From: Arthrobacter antibioticus
GTDB taxonomy: Bacteria; Actinomycetota; Actinomycetes; Actinomycetales; Micrococcaceae
Assembly (NCBI RefSeq): GCF_030063205.1
Contig: NZ_JASISQ010000001.1
Location: 1-64,000, forward strand
Direction: 5' to 3'
Length of the DNA: 64,000 nucleotides
In this document: piece after piece, positions 6,129-64,000 of the stretch
How positions within the stretch are numbered: the first letter of the stretch is position 1
Layout of the letters: the number at the start of each line of letters is the position of its first letter
Notes under the pieces: model-generated
What the model saw: only the letters and a program-made list of their open reading frames with translations
What the model was told of the DNA's origin: nothing
The model's database searches: none
Position numbers and translations under genes: made by a program

Positions 6129-8077
6129 TTGTAGCTCCTCTGGGCCAGCTCAACGTTGGAGTATTCTAAGATTTCCTTACGCAACCGCGGCGGGGAGTCC
6201 TCGTCCGTGAATTCCCACGCCGCAACATAGGTGAACGCACCATCATTGCGCAACGCTTCGCCGTCGGCCGTCTGGCTCTCAGTCCTAAAATGGCTGCCAC
6301 AGGACTCTTCCCGGTGCAACGCATCAATGCACATGAGCTCGGCTAGCTCGAAGAAATCACCAACACGGCCGGCCCGTTCCAGTGTCTGGTTTAGTTCCTC
6401 GTTCACGCCAGTGACTTTAACATTTGTCCAAAACTCGTGTTTGAGTGCACGGATCAGCTCAAGCCCCTGGGCAAGTCCCTGGGCGCTGCGCTCCATTCCA
6501 CAATATTCCCAGAGAATGCTGCCTAGTTCCTTATGGAATGAATCAACGCTCCGGTTGCCGTCGATGGCAAGGAAGTACTTCAGGCGAGTTCGGACCGTCT
6601 CAAGCGCTTTCACTGCCTCCGGGTGGGATGAATCGAAGGCCGTGACAGGATTTCTGGCGAAATAGTCATTGATGGTGTTAGGCAGAATGAAGTAGCCGTC
6701 GGCCAAACCCTGCATTAGTGCGCTGGCACCGAGCCTATTAGCACCGTGGTCTGAGAAGTTCGCTTCGCCAATGACGAACAATCCGGGAATGGAGCTCTCC
6801 AGATCGTAGTCCACCCAGAGCCCACCCATGGTGTAATGCACCGCAGGATAGATCCGCATCGGCACCTGGTAGGGATCTTCATCGGTGATTTTTTGATACA
6901 TGTCAAAAAGGTTGCCGTATTTTTCCTCGATGGCAGCCCGACCCAGCCGGGCTATTGCGTCGGCAAAATCCAGGTAGACTCCGCGTCCGCCCGGTCCCAC
7001 CCCATGCCCGGCATCGCATTGACTCTTGGCTGCCCGGGAGGCCACATCCCGGGGAACGAGGTTGCCGAACGCGGGGTAGGCACGTTCGAGGTAGTAGTCC
7101 CGCTCGTTGAGTGGAATCTGCGCTGGGGACCGGGTATCACCAGCTTTCTTCGGAACCCAAATACGCCCGTCGTTGCGCAATGATTCGCTCATCAGCGTCA
7201 GTTTTGATTGATGCTCTCCACTGACAGGAATACAGGTTGGATGGATTTGTGTGAAGCACGGGTTAGCGAACAGTGCGCCTTTGCGGTGCGCCCGCCAGGT
7301 GGCCGTTGTATTGCAGCCCATGGCATTCGTGGAGAGATAATAGACGTTGCCATAACCACCTGAGGCGAGAACGACGGCGTCGGCCAGGTGAGTCTCCAAG
7401 GCCCCGGAGACCAAATCCCGGACCACAACGCCCCTGGCCTTCCCATCGATGACGATGAGGTCAAGCATCTCGTGGCGTGTGTTGACTTCCACGGTGCCCG
7501 CAGCGACTTGGCGCTCAAGTGCTTGGTAAGCGCCCAACAACAATTGCTGGCCCGTCTGGCCGCGAGCGTAGAAAGTTCGAGAAACCTGCACGCCGCCAAA
7601 GGAGCGAGTGTCCAATAGTCCGCCGTAGTCCCGAGCGAACGGAACGCCCTGGGCAACGCACTGATCGATGATGGAAGAACTGACTTCCGCAAGGCGGTAG
7701 ACGTTTGACTCCCGGGAACGGTAGTCCCCGCCCTTGACGGTGTCGTAAAACAGGCGGCGAACGCTGTCCCCGTCGTTGCGATAGTTTTTAGCTGCATTAA
7801 TCCCACCCTGTGCGGCGATGCTGTGGGCGCGCCGAGGGCTGTCTTGATAGCAGAAACTCTTGACGTGATAACCGGCCTCCCCCAGAGTTGCCGCGGCCGA
7901 AGCGCCCGCCAATCCAGTACCGATCATGATGACGGAGAGCTTGCGCCGGTTGGCAGGGTTGATCAGTTTGGCGCCAAAGCGACGAGACTCCCACTGATCG
8001 GCCAGAGGCCCCGCGGGAGTCTTGGTGTCTTGAATGGGTTCTCCGATTGTGAAAAACTGTTCCATCAGTTCACCCAT
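6125..8077 (-). CDS. sdhA: Succinate dehydrogenase/fumarate reductase flavoprotein subunit
   Basis: Oxidises succinate to fumarate with covalently bound FAD in the TCA cycle and respiratory chain. FAD-binding [18 protein letters not shown] at about residue 52; [14 protein letters not shown] contains the FAD-linking His; [18 protein letters not shown] and [21 protein letters not shown] are active-site and FAD-binding motifs. The 650-residue length and the [13 protein letters not shown] signature fit the Bacillus/Corynebacterium group. Two starts are possible: ATG 8077 (within sdhC) or ATG 8065, which shares an A with the sdhC stop (TGATG); AGGA precedes both. Either way it is coupled to sdhC. 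Confidence 0.95.
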
Positions 8078-46521: not shown

Positions 46522-46763
46522 TCCTCACACCCATCCGGTGTCCATCAAACCTCAAGATGCTGGATCTGGAAGTGGTGGCCGCGTCACGGCCTGGGCGTAA
46601 GACCCAGGAAGTGAAACTGTTTGGGCCAGCCCCGCTAGTCAACCATTTGGCATCGACACGGCGGTCCAAGTGACCCAATGTGGAAGGGCTGGTCTGTGAC
46701 CAAGACAGGAACGCTCATACGACCTCTAGCTGTGAACGCAGCCAACGCTCTGGCCGCAGTCGA

Positions 46764-46798
46764 CAGTCCACATTCCACATTCCACAGTCCACAGTCCA
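46764..46798. repeat. 7-bp tandem repeat, five copies
   Basis: Consecutive CAGTCCA, CATTCCA, CATTCCA, CAGTCCA, CAGTCCA in non-coding DNA. A simple-sequence repeat with two unit variants. Confidence 0.8.
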
Positions 46799-47173
46799 CA
46801 GCGAAGCATGGCGGGAACCTGTGGCGCATTGTCTCCCCGGGACAGATTCGGTAGTGACGCCCTAGCGCAGAGGGAGCATTGGGGGACATAAATCCTCTCC
46901 AGTGAACGTCCCAGCCGTAAGCTTTGACTCGATTAAACTGATGGAGAAATTGTTGGGTTTGCATTTGCCGGACCGGCTATCGGCGCCGGTGTTTGCGAAG
47001 AATAATCCTCATGCCCTCGCATTTTATTAACGAGATCACTTTCATTTTTTGGTGCCTTAAAGAATGCTCCGGACAGTCCGGATGTCCTATAAGTTTGACT
47101 CGTTCGCAATCTGTGCCTTTAGTGATACTCCAGGTTCTCAGCCGATCGTTGGTGGTGTTCTACACTTTCAATC

Positions 47174-52370: not shown

Positions 52371-52464
52371 GGTTCCTCTTTGCTGGCTGGTGTAGGGCTT
52401 GGAGTAGCCGTATTGCCACGTTAACAACAGATGCGGCGCTGAACCGTCCTGGTTTGTTATTAGA

Positions 52465-53487
52465 GTGATGTTCGTGACTGAATATTTGAGGCGAAGTTTT
52501 GAGCTACTTGAGGTCCTGCAATCTGCTGCTGTGCCCGTACCCGCGCGCAATATTGCGGAACTTCTCGGTGTCAATGAACGCAGTATTCGCAGACATATTT
52601 CAGCGTTAAAAGAGGTCGGATTCGGGATCGACTCTGTTCCCGGTCCGCATGGTGGGTATCAACTTGGTCCGGGCCGCAGAGTTGCTCCCTTGCTGCCTAC
52701 TGAGACTGAAGTCGTGGCACTTTTGGCAGGGTTGTCGTCGTCGGCAGCGATGTCGTTGCAGCCATCTGCCATTGATAGAGACTTGCTCATCACTAAGCTG
52801 TCCCGCCTGTTGCCTGCTAAGCATAAACGGGCTGTAGATGATATTAACAGATATGTTGCCTCATACCAGGCCGCCGTACCCGGCACTTCAGCGACGACCA
52901 TAAGGGAACTGGCCAAATATTGTCGGCTTCGTCTACAACTGGAAGTTACCTACAATGCCCGTGGACTGTCGCAGCCTGCACAGCTTTACGAGCCACACCA
53001 GGTCATCCAAAATGACTACCTTTGGTATCTGGTTGCTTGGAATCCACACGAGGGCGAGTGGCGAACGCTGCGCATTGATCGTATTGCTGCCTACCTACCT
53101 GGTAAGCACCATTTTGTGCCTCGCCAGCCCCCGGGATCAGACATGGCCCAATACACGGCCAATTCGATTGCCACTGCTCCGTATGCATTCCGTGTTGAGG
53201 CTGTGTTCCATGCACCAGCGTCAGAGGTTGCCACACTTTTCCCGATTGACGCGGTCTTTATCGAGCCACTGGATGAGAACTCGTGCGTTGTTCATACCGG
53301 TGCGGACACCTACGAAACTGTTGCCGTCTACCTTCTGTCCGCGAATCTGCCATTTTTTATTCGCTCACCAGAAGAAATGCGGAAGAAAATGAATGAATCT
53401 GCTCACCGCCTACGTGTTGCCGCTAACATAGCCACAGTTGATGCTGGTCTACAGGAAACAAGTCGTGGACAGGCTGGTGAGCGATGA
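52465..53487 (+). CDS. HTH/WYL-domain transcriptional regulator (YafY-like)
   Basis: 340 residues. N-terminal HTH_11 (LLEVLQSAAVPVPARNIAELLGVNERSIRRHISALKEVGFGID), a linker, then a WYL domain (LEVTYNARG, YLWYLVAWNPHEGEWRTLRIDRIAAYLPG) and a C-terminal capping domain. GTG 52465 is directly followed by an in-frame ATG (52468); the true start is one of these, with no ribosome-binding site. WYL proteins sense nucleotides or nucleic acids in some systems, but here it more likely regulates the divergent reductase. Coupled to the DUF1697-like gene by a 4-nt overlap. Confidence 0.88.
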   Translation: MMFVTEYLRRSFELLEVLQSAAVPVPARNIAELLGVNERSIRRHISALKEVGFGIDSVPGPHGGYQLGPGRRVAPLLPTETEVVALLAGLSSSAAMSLQPSAIDRDLLITKLSRLLPAKHKRAVDDINRYVASYQAAVPGTSATTIRELAKYCRLRLQLEVTYNARGLSQPAQLYEPHQVIQNDYLWYLVAWNPHEGEWRTLRIDRIAAYLPGKHHFVPRQPPGSDMAQYTANSIATAPYAFRVEAVFHAPASEVATLFPIDAVFIEPLDENSCVVHTGADTYETVAVYLLSANLPFFIRSPEEMRKKMNESAHRLRVAANIATVDAGLQETSRGQAGER

Positions 53488-54014
53488 GTAAACATGTTGC
53501 CTTCTTCCGTTACGTTAACTTCGGCAAATTGGGCAGTCCCACAAGTAAGGATTTGGTGGATGCTTTCGGCGGACCAGATATGGCGAGGAATCACCAGACA
53601 AACGGCACTATTATCTTCCACTCCGATACGCCTAAAGCGCTCACACGAGCCGCCGTGGCTAAACTCCGAGCCTCCGGGTTCTCGCAGGAAGTGATTGTTA
53701 GACCCCTTGGAGATCTAGTGCGCATCGTTGCAGAGCAATCAGTAGTGCCAGCTGAGGAGACACTTCACAAAATCATGGTCTCGTTCTTTGACTACTGCCA
53801 CACTGAACTACCCAGAGAAGTCCCGTTTCAAAGTACGAACGGTCTCGTTGAAACACGGCGTCTGACGCAGCAATATGCCATTAGTGCCTGCTGGATAAAG
53901 AGGAGAACGGTAGGCGATGCAACAGTGCTGCTGGAACGGGTTCTTGGGGTGCCCGTAACTTCCCGCACCATGGGTACCCTCGAACGTCTCATCAAGAAAT
54001 ACTCCTCGAATTGA
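53484..54014 (+). CDS. DUF1697-like protein
   Basis: 176 residues; the N-terminal 85 residues follow the DUF1697 plan (FFRYVNFGKLGSPTSKDLVDAFGG, then TIIFHSDT, LRASGFSQEVIVRPLGDL), although the usual LLRGINVGG motif reads FFRYVNFGK, a diverged form. The C-terminal part has SACWIKRRTVGDATVLLERVLGVPVTSRTMGTLERL, the family's TVRNWRTVEKL-like end. ATG overlaps the WYL stop (ATGA). Function unknown. Confidence 0.68.
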   Translation: MSKHVAFFRYVNFGKLGSPTSKDLVDAFGGPDMARNHQTNGTIIFHSDTPKALTRAAVAKLRASGFSQEVIVRPLGDLVRIVAEQSVVPAEETLHKIMVSFFDYCHTELPREVPFQSTNGLVETRRLTQQYAISACWIKRRTVGDATVLLERVLGVPVTSRTMGTLERLIKKYSSN

Positions 54015-54050
54015 CGTCCGGCTTCGATCATCTTTAGCGCATGTTTGCAG

Positions 54051-54677
54051 CTAAGCGGCCCTGGCCGCTTCTATAAATTCTCTAATAAGCCCGGCATCCT
54101 TGACTCCGCGGCTGGATTCCACACCGCTAGAGACATCCACCCCGCTGGGGCGCAGCGCGTTGGCATATCCTGCCACATTGGCAGGGGTCAGCCCCCCAGC
54201 CAGCAGCCAAAAACCTGGCGGCACACCGTTCGCGAGCATGTTTGTATCAAAACTCACCCCTGCACCAGGCTCGACGGCGTCCAGCAAGACGCGTTCGGAT
54301 TCCCACAACTGCCGTTCGCTGGGGCTTAGAGAGCTGTACGCGTGCGCCGAGAATGCCCGCAAGGTGCGAAAACCCTCCTCACGAAGCCGATGCATGTCTT
54401 TCAAGGACTCATCCCCGTGTAATTGCACAGTTGTTACGGCGGCGCCCTGTGCAGTCCTGAGTACCTCATCGATGGGCTGGTTGCGGAACACCCCCACCGT
54501 TTCGACGCCGCACCCCGTTTCTACGCCGCGTCCAAGCTCGGCGGCGAGCGCTGCCGTGATTGTCCGTGGGCTTCCAGGGGCAAAAATAAAACCAATGGCA
54601 TTGGCGCCTGTGTCCACAGCCGCTGCAACAGTTTCGGGCGTCTGCAATCCGCAAATCTTTATATACAAGGCTGACAC
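54051..54677 (-). CDS. trpF: Phosphoribosylanthranilate isomerase
   Basis: 208-residue TIM barrel of tryptophan synthesis (N-phosphoribosylanthranilate to CdRP). Sequence shows YIKICGLQTPETVAAAVDTGANAIGF with the catalytic Cys, FAPGSPRTIT, VGVFRNQPIDEV, VQLHGDES, LLDAVEPGAGVSF, LAGGLTPANV and GVDVSSGVESSRGVKD with the catalytic Asp. It is isolated, away from any other trp gene in this window. Many Actinobacteria use the bifunctional PriA instead, so a separate TrpF may be redundant or specialised. Confidence 0.92.
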   Translation of the reverse strand: MSALYIKICGLQTPETVAAAVDTGANAIGFIFAPGSPRTITAALAAELGRGVETGCGVETVGVFRNQPIDEVLRTAQGAAVTTVQLHGDESLKDMHRLREEGFRTLRAFSAHAYSSLSPSERQLWESERVLLDAVEPGAGVSFDTNMLANGVPPGFWLLAGGLTPANVAGYANALRPSGVDVSSGVESSRGVKDAGLIREFIEAARAA

Positions 54678-54808
54678 TGTCCTGACTGGTTCAAAGGGGC
54701 CACTCGGGTATGAATTTCGCGAGGGAGATAACTGCCATGTTAACAGCAGGAACCGCCCTTTGGCTCCTATGGGTCCAAGCTCGGAGATGGTCTAGTGAGC
54801 GCAGGCGC

Positions 54809-55618
54809 TCAAAGGAAAATAGTTGCCGCAATTGCCCAGATGACGTAACCACTGACAGGAACAAGGACCAGCCATTCGCGTATTGAACCAGCATTCCCGA
54901 GGATCGGCACGGCAAAACTGCCGCCAGGGCGCCAGAAAATATTTACTAAAGCAACCCCGCGCAAAGCACTCGGGGGCCTGATTCGCAAGGGCCAGATAAG
55001 ATTACAGCCACCTGTCGTGAGCATGTCTCCAATTATGTGGATACCAACGCCCAGCGCCATGGTCAAAGGCAACCAGTAAGGTTCTTGGGGTGCAAACATC
55101 ATGACGAAAACGCCAACAGCAATACCCAGCACCCAAGGGAACTTTCGCATGGTGTCGGGAATGATCTTCAGTGCTTTTGCAGCAAAGGATGCCAACAGAA
55201 CAGCTAGCAAACCCGCTCCCGGATAGATGGTGCCGAAGTTTGCCAGCTCAATCGTCCACATTCCGGCTAGGGCAGCGATGCTGATAAAGAAGGCGAGACC
55301 CAAAATGGAGTGAGTTCCGTGCCGGTGCCCACCAGATATCGTGCCAATCTTTCGACACACAATATTTGACAGGGGTGGGAGGGACTTGGCAATGGTTGCG
55401 TTTCGGTGGTCGGCGTCGGGTACCAGGCCAGCACCTGCGGTTACCAACGCTCCTACAACCACACCCGCAGGAGTCGGATCAAGGATACCCATCCCGATGG
55501 AAAGATGCTCTGGAACGGCTGGCAGTAATTGTGAGAGGCCGCTGAGCCTCACCTCAAAGTGTGTTGTCAGGGCCAGCCAGAGCGCGGCACCGCTGGCAGC
55601 GTGATGGGCTCCCATCAT
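54809..55618 (-). CDS. Membrane-bound metal-dependent hydrolase (DUF457/YdjM-like)
   Basis: 269 residues. N-terminal MMGAHHAASGAALWLAL, the HHA motif, and LVTAGAGLVPDADHRNATIAK and GGHRHGTHSILGLAFF give the His/Asp-rich metal site of the YdjM family; HIIGDMLTTGGCNLIWPL is the second conserved segment. About six hydrophobic segments. ATG 55618 has AAGGA 9 nt upstream. Cellular substrate unknown; E. coli ydjM is SOS-regulated, but no LexA box was seen here. Confidence 0.85.
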   Translation of the reverse strand: MMGAHHAASGAALWLALTTHFEVRLSGLSQLLPAVPEHLSIGMGILDPTPAGVVVGALVTAGAGLVPDADHRNATIAKSLPPLSNIVCRKIGTISGGHRHGTHSILGLAFFISIAALAGMWTIELANFGTIYPGAGLLAVLLASFAAKALKIIPDTMRKFPWVLGIAVGVFVMMFAPQEPYWLPLTMALGVGIHIIGDMLTTGGCNLIWPLRIRPPSALRGVALVNIFWRPGGSFAVPILGNAGSIREWLVLVPVSGYVIWAIAATIFL

Positions 55619-55713
55619 GAGGGCACGTCCTTGCACTATCGGGTTCTTTGTTCTGATCCCGCAACACGTGGACAAAACCTGCTGCTTCAAGCCTATGCGT
55701 AGGTACCGACATT

Positions 55714-55938
55714 ATGGACCCAACGCTGGCGCGTATCCGTTTTCTTCTCTGGGGTCACTTGGGGCTTCCGGGGCCAAGGCCTGCAGCTTATCTTTGGGTC
55801 CTGAGCAAAGAACACGTCGAAGGTCATGCCCAGAATGGACCAAACGGCCCCAAACACCACTCGATGGTGGAGGATTTCATCAGTCTGATAGTTCCGGATC
55901 CCGGTGAGGTGCCAGTTCACTGGCATGAGGGAGGATAA
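55714..55938 (+). CDS. Possible small hypothetical protein
   Basis: 74-codon frame MDPTLARIRFLLWGHLGLPG ending ...PVHWHEGG. It lacks a clear ribosome-binding site. The opposite strand is also open here (55693-55926), so the evidence for either is thin. Possibly just intergenic DNA between convergent-facing promoters of the DUF457 and YqeY-like genes. Confidence 0.28.
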   Translation: MDPTLARIRFLLWGHLGLPGPRPAAYLWVLSKEHVEGHAQNGPNGPKHHSMVEDFISLIVPDPGEVPVHWHEGG

Positions 55939-55989
55939 TTACTTATAACGGCAGCCTAACTGCTGATTACCAGAATCATAAGGGAGCTC

Positions 55990-56454
55990 ATGTCAACGCT
56001 TAAACAACAACTCAAGTCTGATGTCGTCGCGCACATGAAAGCCGGCAATAAGATCGCGCTAACCACCGTTCGCAACGTTTTGGGTGAAATTGAAACACGC
56101 GAAAAGGGCGGAAAAACTCCCATTGAGTTCAACAACACGCAGGTCATCACGCTGTTGCAAAAAGAGGCTGCCAAACGCCGAGATACGGCAGAGATCTATA
56201 TTCAGGCTCAAGAGCAGGATCGGGCCGCGGCAGAAATAGCAGAGGCGGAGGTGATTGAAGCCTACCTTCCCCTTCCTCTGAGCGCCGATGAAGCGGCTGG
56301 AATCGTTGAGCGGATCATCACGGGACTAGAAGCTGAGCAAGGCAAGTTCTCTATGCGGCAAATGGGCTCAGCCATGAAACCGATCACTACCGAAATCGCT
56401 GGGCGTTTTGACGGCAAAATGATATCTGAAATGGTGCGTAAGCGCCTGCAATGA
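55990..56454 (+). CDS. GatB/YqeY domain protein
   Basis: 154 residues matching YqeY proteins: LKQQLKSDVVAHMKAGNKIALTTVRNVLGEIETREK, then QVITLLQKEAAKRRDTAEIY, EAEVIEAYLPLPLSADEA and MRQMGSAMKPITTEIAGRFDGKMISEMVRKRL. The domain is related to the tRNA-binding tail of GatB/GatE, and may bind tRNA; exact role unknown. AAGGGAGCTC precedes the ATG. Confidence 0.93.
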   Translation: MSTLKQQLKSDVVAHMKAGNKIALTTVRNVLGEIETREKGGKTPIEFNNTQVITLLQKEAAKRRDTAEIYIQAQEQDRAAAEIAEAEVIEAYLPLPLSADEAAGIVERIITGLEAEQGKFSMRQMGSAMKPITTEIAGRFDGKMISEMVRKRLQ

Positions 56455-56520
56455 AAGCTCGTGCTAGCTTATATGCAACTGATTCATACCTGTTTATTGG
56501 TTAGTTGAGGAGTGGCGCTC

Positions 56521-56850
56521 GTGGAAAATTTGTTGGGTGTACTTAAAATTGAAGAAGCCTCGCTTCTTCGTGAGGTTGAGTCTGAACGGTTGGCTTTGCT
56601 GGACGAAGACCAATTATTGGCTTTGCACAAACGGGTGCGCCGGGCACGCAACAAATACACAACTAATTACCGGCGAAAGGCTGCTGAACGAGTAGCCGAT
56701 GAAGGTGTCCGGAGTACGCCCAGACCCCTGAATGCAAAAGCTGCCCAGCGAGCGGAAGCCTTTGAAACGGCGCTCTCGCTGGTCAGTGCGCAACTCGCCG
56801 ATGCGGCTGCGCAGTCCGCACAAGCCATCAAGGCCGCGCAGCTGTGTTAG
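56521..56850 (+). CDS. Hypothetical helical protein
   Basis: 109 residues, mostly helical and charged (LLREVESERLALLDEDQLLALHKRVRRARNKYTTNYRRKAAERVADEG). This composition, with basic clusters in the middle and Ala-rich end (LADAAAQSAQAIKAAQ), is common in actinobacterial hypothetical proteins. GTG 56521 is chosen since GAGGAG lies 8 nt upstream; GTG 56512 would place the ribosome-binding site at the start codon. Follows the YqeY-like gene by 66 nt and may be co-transcribed. Confidence 0.7.
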   Translation: MENLLGVLKIEEASLLREVESERLALLDEDQLLALHKRVRRARNKYTTNYRRKAAERVADEGVRSTPRPLNAKAAQRAEAFETALSLVSAQLADAAAQSAQAIKAAQLC

Positions 56851-57007
56851 GCGCAAGTGGAGAGCTTAAGCTGAGCATGCCTGTGCACTAAAAGAACAGC
56901 ACAGCGCTGAGTCTATGAGAGTCTTGTTTTTCACCCTTGCCTGAAGCAGGGGACAACAGTTACGTTTCTAGCTCCATGAGGCGTTCACATTCCAAGGCGG
57001 AACCACC

Positions 57008-57271
57008 ATGATCCAACTGAAACAGGACAGCGACGGATATGTTCGCATGAGTAGGCATTTCCCCGCCAAGACAACAATTTCGATCACATTTTCAGATGGC
57101 ACGCAGGCAGAATTCAGCGGCCGCCGGATGAATGAAATTTATGATGAGGCATTGGCAGCGTACAGGTTGGGGAACAACCTTGATGCCAAGGGGTTTGACC
57201 GACTGGCCAGGAATATACATCGCCGCAACGCCGTTGACTACGTGCCGGTGCAGTCGGGAATGATGCCCTAG
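57008..57271 (+). CDS. Small hypothetical protein
   Basis: 87 residues (IQLKQDSDGYVRMSRHFPAK, then SITFSDGTQAEFSGRRMNEIYDEALAAYR). Beta-strand-rich N-terminus and helical C-terminus, no membrane segment or known domain. AAGGCGG precedes the ATG by 7 nt. Its stop codon's last base begins a GGGATA/GGGACA array, so its mRNA end would carry the repeat. Confidence 0.65.
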   Translation: MIQLKQDSDGYVRMSRHFPAKTTISITFSDGTQAEFSGRRMNEIYDEALAAYRLGNNLDAKGFDRLARNIHRRNAVDYVPVQSGMMP

Positions 57272-57345
57272 GGATAGGGATAGGGACAGGGATAGGGACA
57301 GGGATAGGGACAGGGATAGGGACAGGGATAGGGATAGGGACAGGG
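57271..57345 (+). repeat. Hexamer array (GGGATA/GGGACA)12 with G-quadruplex potential
   Basis: Twelve consecutive hexamers, seven GGGATA and five GGGACA in mostly alternating order, ending in GGG: thirteen G3 runs separated by 3-nt loops on the plus strand. It starts at the stop codon of the small gene and lies about 215 bp upstream of the flotillin gene. The complementary strand reads as a poly(Ser-Leu) frame that is an artefact. Confidence 0.92.
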
Positions 57346-57559
57346 TGTTGTAGTGGCCCACCCGTGTAAAGACGATAAGTGTGCTTACGGGTTGTTCAAC
57401 TGCGGATGAGCGGGTTGGTGTGAGATATTCGCGCATAGATTCGGGAAATTGCGCGAACATTACTCCATCATGTGGAGAATAATCCTATTGTCCGTAGGAT
57501 TGGACCCAGAAGGCGGACCGTGAAGTCCGAGAGGGCCGCCGTGAAATTCGAAAGGTCTC

Positions 57560-59071
57560 ATGTTACTGAACCTCATTCCTGTATTTATCGGTCTTGCTGC
57601 GCTGGTGGTGCTCATTATCATCGCCGCGGTCATCTCACGGATGGCATTGCATATTGCCAGCCCTGACGAGGCCCTGGTTATCTCCTCTAAGGACAATAAG
57701 AACCAGCCCGATCCGAACAGCCAGCGTGTTGTTTTTGGACGTATTTTCATCAATCCGTTTACACAGCGAGCCTACCCACTTTCGCTTGCCTCGCGTCAGG
57801 TGTCGTTGAAGATTGAAGGCATTTCAAAGAACGGCATCAAACTTCACCTCACCGGTGTTGCTCAGGTGAAAGTTGGTGGAGACGCTGATTCCGTGCGGAA
57901 GGCCGCGCAGCGTTTTTTGAATCAGCAGGACGCCATCGACCACTACACGCAGGAAACGCTGTCTGGTTCTTTGCGCTCAATCGTGGGTACGTTGACGGTG
58001 GAGTCAATCATCAAGGACCGCGCCACCTTTGCTAAGAGTGTGAAGGAAGAAGCCGAGCACTCCATGCACAACCAGGGCCTGGAGATCGATACATTCCAGA
58101 TTCAGTCAGTGGATGATGAAACAGGCTACTTGCGTAACCTTGGGCGTCCCGAGGCTGCCTTGGCCGAGAAAAACGCCAAGATCGCAGAAGCCCAGTCCGT
58201 GCAGGAAGCGGAGCAGGCTAAGGCCATTGCGGATGAGCAGGTTGCCCTCGCGCAGCAGCAGCTGATCATCAAGCGTGCAGAGCTCAAAGAAGTGGCAGAT
58301 GCCCGTCAGGCCCGTGCCGACGCGGCTGGACCACTTGCCGCGGCTGAACAAAATGAGCAGGTCATCATCCGCGATCAGCAAGTTGCCTTGCGGCGTGCTG
58401 AACTGCGTGAAAAAGAACTCGACACTGAGGTTCGTAAGCCAGCAGATGCCGAGAAGTACAGGCTCATCCAGCAAGCTGACGCGAAATTGGAAGAACGACG
58501 TCGAGCTTCCGAAGCCGCTGAAATCGAAGCCACCGTTGAACTCGCCAAGCGCAAGCTCACGGCGGAGGGTGACCGAGTGGCAGCAGAAGCTGATGCTGCT
58601 GCAAACACGGCGCGAGGTAACGCCGATGCTGCTGTGATTGAGGCACGCGGCCGGGCCGATGCCAACGTCATCAAGTCTCGTGGGCAAGCAGATGCCGAAT
58701 CAATCAAGGCAAAGGGAGTGGCGGAGGCTGCTGGTATTTCTGCTCAGGCTGAAGCTTATGAGAAGTTCAATGAGGCAGCAATCCTCAGCAAGGTCCTAGA
58801 AGTCTTGCCTGCCATGGCTCGCGAAGTTGCTGCGCCCATGTCTGCTATCAAGAACATGACGGTGGTCTCCAACGATGGTGCAAGCCAGTTGAGCAAGAAC
58901 GTCTCCAACGGTGTGCATCAGACAACCCAATTGATCAAGGACTCCACTGGTCTTGACATCATAGGCTTGTTGCAGAGTGTTGTAGGCAAGGACTCCTCGA
59001 ATGAACCCGATGGCGTCAGTGACAGCGCCGCCGAAACAGCTGGGAGCGAATTCGAAATCGACGCGCACTAA
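57560..59071 (+). CDS. floT: Flotillin-like SPFH-domain protein
   Basis: 503 residues. N-terminal membrane anchor (LIPVFIGLAALVVLIIIAAVI), an SPFH domain at about residues 30-210 (RVVFGRIFINPFTQRAYPLSL, TGVAQVKVGGDADSVRKAAQRFL, LRSIVGTLTVESIIKDR), then a long Ala/Glu/Arg coiled coil at about residues 215-420 (QVALAQQQLIIKRAELKEVADARQARADAA) typical of flotillins, and a C-terminal tail. It organises membrane microdomains. ATG 57560 follows GAAAGG; a terminator-like hairpin follows the gene. No NfeD-like partner is adjacent. Confidence 0.92.
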   Translation: MLLNLIPVFIGLAALVVLIIIAAVISRMALHIASPDEALVISSKDNKNQPDPNSQRVVFGRIFINPFTQRAYPLSLASRQVSLKIEGISKNGIKLHLTGVAQVKVGGDADSVRKAAQRFLNQQDAIDHYTQETLSGSLRSIVGTLTVESIIKDRATFAKSVKEEAEHSMHNQGLEIDTFQIQSVDDETGYLRNLGRPEAALAEKNAKIAEAQSVQEAEQAKAIADEQVALAQQQLIIKRAELKEVADARQARADAAGPLAAAEQNEQVIIRDQQVALRRAELREKELDTEVRKPADAEKYRLIQQADAKLEERRRASEAAEIEATVELAKRKLTAEGDRVAAEADAAANTARGNADAAVIEARGRADANVIKSRGQADAESIKAKGVAEAAGISAQAEAYEKFNEAAILSKVLEVLPAMAREVAAPMSAIKNMTVVSNDGASQLSKNVSNGVHQTTQLIKDSTGLDIIGLLQSVVGKDSSNEPDGVSDSAAETAGSEFEIDAH

Positions 59072-59153
59072 GCGCCTCTGTGGAGTGCTGCTAACAGTGC
59101 TAATAGCCTAGTGCTTGGAACTTAGAGCTATACCCGCATGGCTAGAGAGGAAG

Positions 59154-59180
59154 GGCCCCCATTTCAGTGATTTGGGGGCC
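59154..59180. terminator. Hairpin terminator candidate after the flotillin gene
   Basis: GGCCCCC (59154-59160) pairs with GGGGGCC (59174-59180) across a 13-nt loop. No T-run follows directly, so efficiency is uncertain; position just after the gene supports it. Confidence 0.55.
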
Positions 59181-59211
59181 ATTGCTCTCTCGTCATGGCT
59201 AGTCTGGGAGT

Positions 59212-59898
59212 ATGACTGTTGAAACCACTATCATCCATGACCTTCCAATGCATACCGTCCGACGTTCAATCGTCTCGCAGATGCAAAATAACGTTTACCT
59301 AATCACGGCTAAGAGCAGCGGTGCCCAGATCCTCATTGATGCAGCTGACGACTTGCCAGCGATCAACGCCTTACTAAAAGAGGCGTCCGCCGATGTTAAT
59401 ACCGGCGCTAAGGCGTCCTTGAAGATGATTGCAACCACACACCAACATTGGGACCACCTCCGTGCCTTGCCGTCCCTTGTCGCCCAAAGTAGTGCCCCAA
59501 CAGCGGCTGGTACGGACGATATTGCAGGGATCAAGACTCAAGCGGGCGTCTCAACGGATGTCTCTTTGCACAACGGTGGAACACTGGCGGTAGACGGTAT
59601 TGAGCTGACTACGGTGCACCTGCGTGGACACACACCAGGATCGATGGCCTTCATCCTACAAAGCGGTGGCTCGGAGCGCTCTGACACGCTAATTTTTAGC
59701 GGAGACTCTCTGTTTCCCGGCGGTGTGGGCAACACCGGCGAAGACAAGGCACGCTTCACCCAATTGCTAGACGATGTTCAGGATCGCCTCTTCAACAAGT
59801 ACCCGGATGACGCCATCGTCTTGCCCGGTCACGGAAATGCGACCACCCTTGGCAACGAGCGGGCAGCCCTGCCACAATGGCGTGAGCGCGGCTGGTAG
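59212..59898 (+). CDS. Metallo-beta-lactamase-fold hydrolase
   Basis: 228 residues. Zinc-binding motif THQHWDHLRAL (HxHxDH), LRGHTPGSMAF, IFSGDSLFPGGVGNT and LPGHGNATTLGNERAALPQW are all in order, typical of glyoxalase II-like/hydroxyacylglutathione-hydrolase-type actinobacterial proteins. Likely acts on a thioester or lactone; substrate unknown. Begins 32 nt after the hairpin. Followed by a tandem repeat. Confidence 0.9.
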   Translation: MTVETTIIHDLPMHTVRRSIVSQMQNNVYLITAKSSGAQILIDAADDLPAINALLKEASADVNTGAKASLKMIATTHQHWDHLRALPSLVAQSSAPTAAGTDDIAGIKTQAGVSTDVSLHNGGTLAVDGIELTTVHLRGHTPGSMAFILQSGGSERSDTLIFSGDSLFPGGVGNTGEDKARFTQLLDDVQDRLFNKYPDDAIVLPGHGNATTLGNERAALPQWRERGW

Positions 59899-59912
59899 CA
59901 GGTGGGCTACAC

Positions 59913-60103
59913 ACGCTTGGGGCCCCTCGGCGGCTACCGCGCACCCACCTCCCCAAACCCGCTACGCACGCTTGGGGCCCCTCGGCGGCTACCGCGCACC
60001 CACCTCCCCAAACCCGCTACGCACGCTTGGGGCCCCTCGGCGGCTACCGCGCACCCACCTCCCTAAACCCGCTACGCACGCTTGGGGCCCCTCGGCGGCT
60101 ACG
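59913..60103. repeat. 55-bp tandem repeat, about 3.5 copies
   Basis: Copies begin at 59913, 59968 and 60023 with a partial at 60078, exactly 55 bp apart and nearly identical. Each contains CTTGGGGCCCCTCGGCGGCT with the palindrome GGGGCCCC, then ACCGCGCACCCACCTCCCCA. The array fills the spacer between two plus-strand genes. It has no unique spacers, so it is not a CRISPR array. Confidence 0.92.
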
Positions 60104-60111
60104 CTTAGTCC

Positions 60112-60435
60112 ATGTACTTTATTGTTGTGAAATTTCAGGTTTTGCCCGAATCTGCCGAACAATTCATGGGTTTGGTGGGTGACTACACGGAATCCACGCG
60201 CGCTGAGCCGGGGAACTTATGGTTTGATTGGTCCCGCAGCGTCGAGGACCCCAACGAGTTTGTCCTCATTGAGGCCTTTCGCGACGACGACGCGGCAAGC
60301 AGCCACGTCTCCAGTGCACACTTCAAAGCTGGTCTTGAAACCATGCGTCCAGTCCTTGTGGCGACTCCGAAGATTGTCTCACGCAAAGTTGACGGCAGCG
60401 ACTGGGACACCATGGGCGAATTGCAGATCAGCTGA
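60112..60435 (+). CDS. Putative quinol monooxygenase (ABM family)
   Basis: 107-residue dimeric ferredoxin-like monooxygenase fold, cofactor-free in relatives. IVVKFQVLPESAEQFMGLVGDYTESTRAEPGNLWFDWSRS and FVLIEAFRDDDAASSHVSSAHFKAGLETM follow the YgiN/Lsr-type pattern, including the His residues of the active site. Starts 9 bp after the tandem repeat; its stop TGA (60433-60435) overlaps the presumed hrpB start. Confidence 0.87.
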   Translation: MYFIVVKFQVLPESAEQFMGLVGDYTESTRAEPGNLWFDWSRSVEDPNEFVLIEAFRDDDAASSHVSSAHFKAGLETMRPVLVATPKIVSRKVDGSDWDTMGELQIS

Positions 60436-63098
60436 TTCACCTGCCAAACACCGTTGCCAAGGAACTTCCCGACGGCCCATTTACTCTAGCCACGCTCGGA
60501 CAGGGACTGGTTTTCGCCACGTCACTGCCCGAGCTGGCAAGAGTATTCACCCAGTCCGGCGCGCAGCCCCCTGAGGGGACGGCAGCCGTTATCCAGGCAC
60601 CTCCGGGCACTGGTAAAACCACTCTCGTACCGCCGCTACTGGTTAACATACTCAACGCGAGCGGCGGAGGGCACAGGAGGATTCTTGTCACCTCGCCCCG
60701 CCGGGTGACAGTGCGGGCGGCAGCACGCCGTCTGGCCGCGCTGGATGGGACAGCGCTTGGTACCAAAGTTGGCTATACGGTGCGCGGAGAAAGTCACACC
60801 CGTGCAGGTACTTTAATCGAGTTCCTTACCCCCGGTATCCTCGTGCGGCGCTTGTTAAGCGATCCTGGGCTGGAAGGTGTAGTCGCCGTTGTACTCGATG
60901 AAGTCCATGAACGCGGTCTTGACACTGACCTGCTCCTGGGCATGCTGGGGGAGGTTCGGGCATTACGCGGTGATCTCTCCGTGCTGGCTATGTCGGCAAC
61001 GTTGGACGCACGAGGCTTTGCCTATCTTTTGGGGGCGGCCGACGGCGGACCGCCGGCCCCCATCGTTGACTGCCCGTCTGCGCTGTACCCCCTTGAAACA
61101 CTCTGGGCACCGTCAGCGCAACCTCGGATTGACCAACGAGGTATAACCCGAGCGTTCCTTAATCATGTGGCCGATACGGCAGCGACAGCCCACGCCAATG
61201 CCGTGGCCCAGAACGCTGACACGGACGCACTGGTGTTTGCCCCGGGCGCATGGGAGGTGGGGTATATCGCCGCGCGTCTGCGCACGATTGTGAAAGGCAC
61301 AGACGTACTTGAACTGCACGGGCAAGTGCCAGCCCGCGAGCAGGACAAAGCGGTCTCAGCCCGTGAAAGCGGCGGCTTGCCCCGCATCATCGTGTCAACA
61401 TCGTTGGCCGAATCGTCATTGACAGTTCCTGGCGTACGGTTGGTCATTGATTCCGGCCTCTCGCGTGAACCTCGCCGCGACGCCACCCGTGAGATGACAG
61501 GCTTGGTCACTGTCACCACCTCGCGTGCCTCCGCTGACCAACGGGCAGGACGCGCGGCACGATTGGGCCCGGGCACAGTAGTGCGCTGTTATGACCAGAA
61601 AACTTTTGCTGCAGCTCCTGCCCACCCCACCCCAGAGATAGCCGTGGCCGAGCTTAGTGCGGCTGCACTGACACTTGCCTGCTGGGGTTCGCCGGGCGGC
61701 AAGGGCCTCCTGCTGCCCGATACTCCTCCTGCGCAATCCATGAAAGCGGCGTTGACTGTCCTGGCTGAACTTGGGGCATTGGATTCAGGCGGACACGCAA
61801 CCGCTCTAGGTAAGACTTTGGCCCTCATACCCGCCAGTCCCCGCTTGGCTCGGGCTCTACTAGACGGTGCCAAGGTGGTGGGCTCCAAGTCTGCAGCAGA
61901 AATTGTGGCCCTGGTATCCGGTGATATTAGGGCCCCCGGAGCCGATCTCACATCAGCTTTGTCTTCGCTGCGCTCCGGACGCGATCCCGCAGCGCAGCGC
62001 TGGGCCCAGGAAGTGCGGCGCCTTCAACGAATAGTGCGCAAGACTCGTGAGAGCGCTAATGACAGCGCCAATCTCAAGCATTCGGTGCGGATTGGCGTGG
62101 ATGCAGCAGACGCTGTGGGCTACGTTGTTGGGCTGGCCTTCCCGGACAGGGTTGCACGGCTGGTTGTTGGTGCTGCTGGAAACCAGTACCTATTCTCCTC
62201 AGGTACCCGTGCGGGTCTACCCGCCGGCAGCTCACTGGCAGGGCGCGAGTGGGTGGCGGTGGCAGAAGTTTCCCGGACGGAAGGCCGGGACGCTGCAGGA
62301 ACGGGAGCGGTTATCCGTTCCGCCGGTCCTTTGAGTGAGAAAAATGCTGTGGAAGTCGCCTCTCGTATGCATACCGATGAGGTCATTGTGGAGTTCATCA
62401 ACGGTAAGCTCGCGGGGCGTCGGGAACGGCGGCTGGGTGCTGTGCTGCTCTCCTCCACACCAATCAAAGCGACTGTTGCCCAGGGACGGAACGCGGTTGC
62501 GGCCGCCATATCTAAGCAGGGCTTATGTGTGCTTTCGTGGAGCCGTGCTGCCAGTTCTTTGCGAAGTAGGCTTGCCCTACTTCGCCGTGAGCTGGGGGAG
62601 CCGTGGCCTGATGTTGGTGATGAAGCACTGCTGGCGCGGCTGCCGGAATGGTTGGGGCCCGAACTTGAATCCGTTGCGGCAGGTAGGTCTTTGTCTTCGC
62701 TGTCTCTGATAGAGCCTTTGCGACGCCTGCTACCGTGGCCCGAAGCGGCCAAGCTTGGCGAGTTGGTTCCGGAATCCTTGGTTGTGCCCAGTGGTTCACG
62801 GATTATGATTGACTACCCGCCCGTGTCCGACGGCGGCCCTCCCGTTGTTGCTGTGAAGCTGCAGGAGTGCTTTGGCCTGGTAAGTACCCCTCATCTGGTG
62901 GCCGGCCGCGTGCCAGTACTTTTTCATTTGCTTTCACCGGCAAGGCGGCCATTAGCTGTCACCGGCGACCTTGCCTCCTTTTGGAGTGGACCTTATGCTC
63001 ACGTGCGCGCTGAGATGCGTGGGCGCTATCCCAAACACCCATGGCCGGAAGACCCGTGGAGCGCGCCCGCGACTTCAAAACTGAAGAGCCGGATGTGA
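60435..63098 (+). CDS. hrpB: ATP-dependent RNA helicase HrpB
   Basis: DEAH-box helicase. Motif I IQAPPGTGKTTLVPPLL (60591-60641), PRRVTVRAAARRLA, motif II DEVHERG, motif III AMSATLD, then the helicase C domain (STSLAESSLTVPGVRLVIDSG, SADQRAGRAARLGPG) and the HrpB-specific C-terminus (WPEDPWSA). The frame is open from 60393 (previous stop TGA 60390) and carries motif I, but there is no in-frame ATG, GTG or TTG before motif I; the first is GTG 60705, which would delete motif I. The annotated start is the ATT at 60435, which overlaps the upstream TGA; CTG codons at 60432 and 60441 are alternatives. About 887 residues. Confidence 0.82.
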   Translation: MHLPNTVAKELPDGPFTLATLGQGLVFATSLPELARVFTQSGAQPPEGTAAVIQAPPGTGKTTLVPPLLVNILNASGGGHRRILVTSPRRVTVRAAARRLAALDGTALGTKVGYTVRGESHTRAGTLIEFLTPGILVRRLLSDPGLEGVVAVVLDEVHERGLDTDLLLGMLGEVRALRGDLSVLAMSATLDARGFAYLLGAADGGPPAPIVDCPSALYPLETLWAPSAQPRIDQRGITRAFLNHVADTAATAHANAVAQNADTDALVFAPGAWEVGYIAARLRTIVKGTDVLELHGQVPAREQDKAVSARESGGLPRIIVSTSLAESSLTVPGVRLVIDSGLSREPRRDATREMTGLVTVTTSRASADQRAGRAARLGPGTVVRCYDQKTFAAAPAHPTPEIAVAELSAAALTLACWGSPGGKGLLLPDTPPAQSMKAALTVLAELGALDSGGHATALGKTLALIPASPRLARALLDGAKVVGSKSAAEIVALVSGDIRAPGADLTSALSSLRSGRDPAAQRWAQEVRRLQRIVRKTRESANDSANLKHSVRIGVDAADAVGYVVGLAFPDRVARLVVGAAGNQYLFSSGTRAGLPAGSSLAGREWVAVAEVSRTEGRDAAGTGAVIRSAGPLSEKNAVEVASRMHTDEVIVEFINGKLAGRRERRLGAVLLSSTPIKATVAQGRNAVAAAISKQGLCVLSWSRAASSLRSRLALLRRELGEPWPDVGDEALLARLPEWLGPELESVAAGRSLSSLSLIEPLRRLLPWPEAAKLGELVPESLVVPSGSRIMIDYPPVSDGGPPVVAVKLQECFGLVSTPHLVAGRVPVLFHLLSPARRPLAVTGDLASFWSGPYAHVRAEMRGRYPKHPWPEDPWSAPATSKLKSRM

Positions 63099-63139
63099 GA
63101 GAACCTTAGTGCGGAACAGCTTGTGCTTACTGCTTGTGC

Positions 63140-63988
63140 TTACTGCGAAGGGTGGCTTGTCCCGACCCGCGTTGCCTCACGCCACTGATTATTTGTCAGA
63201 TGTGAACTTGCCTGGGCACCTACTTCTGCCATTCCGCCGTCGACCTCCCAACTGGCGCCTGTGACGTAACTGGCCGCAGGCGAGGCTAAGAAGGCGATGA
63301 CACTGGCAACTTCCTTAGCGGTTCCTGCATGTCCCAAGGGAATCCCGGGACGTGCAATCTCATGCGGATGCCTCGTTTCGGTTGCATCCAAATGGGTGGC
63401 AATTTCGCCCGGAGCCACGGCGTTGACAGTAATTCCATGCTCAGAGAGTTCAACGGCCAGCGTTTTGGTGAGTCCGTCAAGGCCAAACTTAGATGCGCAA
63501 TACGCACCAAAGCCAAAGCGTGGCTGATGTGCGTGGATGCTGGTGACAACCACTATTCGGCCCCCTGACTCACCGGCCACCAAAAGTTTCGCTGCGGCTT
63601 TCAGGCACAGGAACGCCCCGTTAAGATTGGTGTCGAGAATACGCTGCCAATCGGCATAGGTGGTATCAATCACCGAACTAAGCAAACCAACGCCCACGTT
63701 ATTGACAAACACACCCAGTGATCCCAGTTGCTTCGCAAGCGTATTCACGGCTGGCGCGCAGCTGTGCAGGTCGGTAGTGTCCAGCCACAACGATGAGGCC
63801 CGTTGACCCAAATTCTGGATTATGGCGGTTGTATCATCCGCCCCAGCCTCATCGTCGTGCCAGGTAAAGCCAACATCGTAACCGTTCTGGGCCAAAGCAA
63901 TAGCAGTGGCCTTTCCGATCCCAGTATCAGCTCCTGTCACGATCGCGGTTGATGGATACTTTCTTGTAGCTCTTGTCCTGACAACCAT
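63140..63988 (-). CDS. SDR family oxidoreductase
   Basis: 282-residue classical short-chain dehydrogenase. NAD(P) site VTGADTGIGKATAIALAQNGY, NNVGVGLLS, catalytic VVTSIHAHQPRFGFGAYCASKFGLDGLTKTLAVEL with Ser, Tyr and Lys, and VAPGEIATHL; C-terminal YVTGASWEVDGGM. ATG 63988 lies 12 bp from the window end, so upstream signals are not visible. Substrate unknown; a family with glucose- and 3-oxoacyl-reductases. Confidence 0.9.
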   Translation of the reverse strand: MVVRTRATRKYPSTAIVTGADTGIGKATAIALAQNGYDVGFTWHDDEAGADDTTAIIQNLGQRASSLWLDTTDLHSCAPAVNTLAKQLGSLGVFVNNVGVGLLSSVIDTTYADWQRILDTNLNGAFLCLKAAAKLLVAGESGGRIVVVTSIHAHQPRFGFGAYCASKFGLDGLTKTLAVELSEHGITVNAVAPGEIATHLDATETRHPHEIARPGIPLGHAGTAKEVASVIAFLASPAASYVTGASWEVDGGMAEVGAQASSHLTNNQWREATRVGTSHPSQ

Positions 63989-64000
63989 TTTCGTTACTTG

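Follow-up and report, generated by a model that had tools for sequence, protein, structure and literature searches.

Telomere-type GGGTTA arrays are built of G3 tracts with 3-nt loops, and contingency-locus simple sequence repeats are short tandem repeats of variable length that lie near genes and are linked to phase variation. The latter are named in the introduction of Rehm et al. (2015; PMC4692102), which was the closest match to the present locus among the matches listed in our literature searches and which describes the heptameric G-rich repeats GGGNATC and GGGGA(C/T)T of Xanthomonas and Nostoc. These repeats form quadruplexes by circular dichroism (CD), prefer the gaps between genes of the same direction and vary extensively in length (PMC4692102). 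Those located downstream of a gene are on its coding strand and either lie within 50 bp of the stop codon or overlap it. Among Xanthomonas transcripts, starts and stops are enriched at the quadruplex repeats relative to controls, with either strand transcribed, and the authors report that they identified no role in gene regulation (PMC4692102). The structures of simple DNA repeats from bacteria are the subject of a further article (PMC7015867). The string ATAGGGATAGGG occurs in 4 papers, none of which concerns such an array, judging from titles and the opening lines of abstracts.

A G-rich hexanucleotide array at a stop codon

We analyzed a contiguous stretch of 64,000 nt (referred to as the window). 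A sequence-only reading had reported a (GGGAYA)12 array with thirteen G3 tracts and 3-nt loops, situated on the coding strand at the stop codon of a small gene. Both the sequence and Tandem Repeats Finder agree with this description, and the features concerned are the following:

57008..57271, + strand: small 87-codon ORF that ends with the TAG opening the repeat register (ORF list, homologue search).
57269..57345, + strand (coding strand): TAG stop followed by the (GGGAYA)12GGG array with 13 G3 tracts (sequence, Tandem Repeats Finder, pattern counts).

Tandem Repeats Finder places the array at 57269-57345 with a period of 6 and 12.8 copies, and in its period-12 version (TAGGGACAGGGA) with 6.4 copies and 95% matches. 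The array starts with the TAG at 57269 and runs to 57345, a total of 77 nt in which 13 intact GGG tracts are separated by either ATA or ACA; this makes 12 full GGGAYA units and a thirteenth GGG. With T for ATA and C for ACA, the loop order counted by eye is T T C T C T C T C T T C. The repeat register takes in the stop codon of the small ORF.

The tract pattern of the array is far beyond chance. The pattern GGGN3GGGN3GGGN3GGG has 10 matches in the window, all inside the array, vs. 0.04 expected, and none of 100 shuffled sequences reached 10 matches. Genome-wide (3,792,603 bases, 21 contigs), the array accounts for 10 of the 17 matches, with seven found elsewhere, while GGGAYAx4 has a single site, namely the array. 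Canonical quadruplex motifs (loops of 1-7 nt) on the + strand of the window number three, non-overlapping and all in the array; on the - strand there are two, at 6990 and 36849. The array had also been described as an unusually strong quadruplex candidate, which holds true by tract count but not by G4Hunter: its mean of 1.49 is moderate rather than exceptional, and it contains only two of the 20 regions in the 64 kb with an absolute value of at least 1.5, the other 18 being outside.

No Rfam family matched 55500-60300 at E up to 1. A plasmid origin of the array region was rejected, as a distant-mode search of plasmid sequences against 56900-57600 gave no match. The window also carries a 55-nt tandem repeat at 59906-60102 (3.6 copies, 98% matches), directly after an ORF of the metallo-beta-lactamase fold (59212-59898), and a 7-nt tandem repeat, CAGTCCA, at 46757-46801 (6.4 copies).

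The 87-codon ORF matches no Pfam or NCBIfam family, and its homologue is present in 21 of 23 genus genomes, its own included. In its frame, seven more TAG codons follow the stop (counted by eye). A coding role of the array was rejected since this frame alternates between stop-Gly and Gln-Gly, and hence is untranslated past the stop. Changes in array length leave the small protein unaltered because the stop codon comes before the repeat. The reverse ORF 57092-57460, which encodes an SLSLSL pattern, has no Pfam family, and we take it to be a frame that the repeat keeps open by chance.

Variation and distribution of the array

Array copy number varies within the species (n = 2 genomes, the window and the conspecific G019), in line with the length variability that had been proposed from the sequence: at the same site, G019 has ten G3 tracts vs. 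thirteen in the window. The loop order is TTCTCTCTCTTC in the window and TTTTTTCCC in G019. Since both the ATA/ACA order and the number of tracts differ between the conspecifics, several steps of gain and loss are implied. Across 11,588 aligned columns (52425-64000 of the window), the two genomes differ by 75 substitutions, three of which are within the array, and by two indels, one of 18 nt inside the array and the other of 12 nt at 62047. The latter is an insertion in G019 relative to the window and lies inside the long ORF 60705-63098. The G tracts are intact in both conspecifics (13/13 in the window, 10/10 in G019) and only one loop base varies. This may reflect selection on folding; homogenisation by slippage predicts the same.

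In the other 21 genus genomes, GGGAYAx4 was not found. Similarly, runs of at least four GGGNNN or CCCNNN units are absent from the small-gene loci of 19 relatives (~3.2 kb each). Across the family, a 4.5-unit pattern is present in 4 of 395 genomes: the two conspecifics, G084 and G283. In G084 (L079), GGGACA and GGGGCA units make up a repeat of ~120 nt, and in G283 (L080) there is a 30-nt GGGACA array, each at another place. The flanks of these two arrays appear unrelated, as judged by eye.

Replication direction was deduced from G019, where dnaA is located at 309-1694 of a 3.6 Mb contig. GC skew was taken in 20 samples of 20 kb. All 10 samples between 0.6 and 1.76 Mb are positive, and of the 10 between 1.80 and 2.30 Mb all but the one at 2.05 Mb are negative, with the sign change between 1.76 and 1.80 Mb. 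The array is found at 1.685 Mb on the + strand, which probably places it on the right replichore, close to the terminus. The position of dnaA, the skew switch and the location of the array make the G-rich strand the probable template of the lagging strand, and this fits slippage.

We infer that the array originated by slippage and is nearly neutral. In the reading that we favour, and hold to be probably correct, it is a hexanucleotide variable-number repeat of recent, species-level origin that grew by slippage in tolerant non-coding DNA, most likely with no strong regulatory role. A short TAGGGA-like sequence at the small gene's stop codon would have provided the seed, from which the array probably grew by replication slippage in a setting of non-coding DNA, where changes in length would be cheap. 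Exposed G tracts on the lagging-strand template could fold, which would favour slippage. Any effect of the array would then be expected where the transcript of the small gene ends.

Transcript ends and the downstream flotillin gene

The features between the array and the end of the next gene on the same strand are the following:

57360..57392, + strand: predicted hairpin with a 7-pair stem, a loop of 19 nt and no T run (fold prediction).
57463..57500, + strand: promoter-like element CTCCATCATGTGGA-N16-CGTAGGAT (upstream alignment of 12 flotillin loci).
57560..59071, + strand: flotillin-like gene of 503 aa with Band_7 and Flot (Pfam, NCBIfam).

The array could serve the transcript of the small gene as a 3′ end element: a quadruplex in the RNA or DNA would make transcription pause or stop, or would shield the RNA end, and read-through towards the flotillin gene would thereby be limited. 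We consider such a role unlikely. The transcribed RNA carries the G-rich strand, starting at the stop codon, and ViennaRNA with quadruplexes enabled predicts three of them in the window array RNA (-39.5 kcal/mol vs. -1.1 without) and two in that of G019 (-25.8 kcal/mol vs. 0 without). These energies are RNA model values, from which we infer that the array may fold into quadruplexes in the cell. Furthermore, a terminator scan of the + strand from 56850 to 57620 (loops of 3-8 allowed) found no conventional terminator, and the enrichment of transcript starts and stops at the Xanthomonas repeats (PMC4692102) points in the same direction. On the other hand, that enrichment is seen with either strand transcribed and its authors report no role in gene regulation, while other species of the genus do without the array at this site, so that it is dispensable there. 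In addition, the predicted hairpin just past the array, which the scan missed because its loop of 19 exceeds the loops of 3-8 that the scan takes, could serve instead; it might conceivably be a 3′ end structure itself.

An extension of the same idea is that the array is a length-tunable transcript-end element, in which the 13 tracts would make three quadruplexes and 10 tracts two, and slippage would shift the read-through from the small gene to the flotillin promoter. We regard this as improbable.

The array had also been said to lie upstream of a flotillin gene, and the next same-strand gene is indeed flotillin-like. Its 503-aa product matches Band_7 (6.2e-20) and Flot (7.6e-10) in Pfam, and scores 233 bits against the NCBIfam FloT model, under the cut-off of 700. 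Among the named loci of its relatives, 30 of 32 bear the name Arthrobacter. The records L060, titled Vibrio cholerae 35D, and L053, titled Sporosarcina beigongshangi REN13, contain Arthrobacter-like flotillin genes with 86% and 91% identity to that of the window, respectively; the probable explanations are contamination and the misnaming of a genome.

Upstream of the flotillin gene, we aligned 12 loci that were chosen for looking alike (the window and 11 relatives). Eight of the 32 named flotillin loci are of this type, i.e. seven that were aligned and L053, whose upstream sequence matches that of G015 by eye; the other 24 (L036-L052, L054-L057 and L059-L061) have different upstream sequences by eye and were excluded. 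All 12 aligned loci share ATGTGGA (ATATGGA in one locus and AAGTGGA in another), exactly 16 nt, and then CGTAGGAT or a one-letter variant of it. GTGGA-N16-CGTAGGAT has exactly one match per genome in 5/5 chosen genomes, while the reversed control has zero. It should be noted that the element is partly palindromic. TAGGAT is a common -10 hexamer in actinobacteria, and the arrangement of GTGGAG followed by TAGGAT, 17 nt apart, is consistent with a promoter. A scan for the sigma-70 consensus did not flag the element at 57463-57500, as the first hexamer has too little resemblance to TTGACA. The element is likely the flotillin promoter, and it may perhaps include an operator. With that assignment, neither the leader nor the core promoter of the flotillin gene would include the array. 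A structured leader was rejected as too weakly indicated to claim: RNAalifold on 9 leader sequences gives only 4 pairs and -1.2 kcal/mol, and three of these pairs show changes on both sides, in one of the 9 sequences each. A weak leader hairpin, GGCGGACC...GGGCCGCC, is predicted at 57512-57540 of the window.

These results weaken the earlier suggestion that the array affects flotillin expression. Length-dependent, phase-variable control of flotillin by the array would agree with its variable length and its place upstream on the same strand, but the chances of it are slim: the 6-nt unit lies past a stop codon, hence no frame switching is possible, and the conserved promoter-like element starts 117 nt after the end of the array and is kept by other species that have no array. 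Finally, it is very improbable that the length difference is an artefact of assembly or sequencing, for although the window genome is in 21 contigs and assembly can collapse tandem repeats, the array is only 77 nt long and the ATA/ACA order differs too, beyond what collapse alone gives.

Comparison with known repeats

The slippage-grown, variable-number repeat that we favour can be set beside the systems introduced at the outset. Like telomere-type GGGTTA repeats, the array has G3 tracts and 3-nt loops; unlike them, it lies in the interior of a bacterial chromosome, has other loop letters and has no telomere role. It resembles a contingency repeat in being short, near a gene and variable in length (two genomes), but differs from one in that its unit is divisible by 3 and follows a stop codon, so that the frame is unaffected, and in that it ends 117 nt before the likely promoter of the next gene.

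With the Xanthomonas and Nostoc repeats, the array shares its position and its variability: it starts at the TAG at 57269, is on the coding strand and is followed by a gene of the same direction, and its length varies between close relatives (13 vs. 10 tracts, two genomes). In contrast to those heptamers, its unit is the hexamer GGGAYA with other loop letters, and whereas they form a dispersed family, GGGAYAx4 is confined to a single genome site. The Xanthomonas and Nostoc repeats prefer four units, while the array has 12 in the window and 9 in G019; and its host is Arthrobacter-like, not Xanthomonas or Nostoc. A further shared trait is the capacity for quadruplex formation, established by CD for those repeats and predicted from model energies for the array.

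G-rich repeats at stop codons are thus known from Xanthomonas and Nostoc, for which the authors report having found no function (PMC4692102). The present locus offers two natural lengths at a single site in a nearly identical background, which would be a clean setting for the question of transcript ending. Taken together, the array is the same kind of object as the Xanthomonas and Nostoc repeats without being a member of their family, and its main message is that repeats with the capacity for quadruplexes can emerge and vary inside one species.
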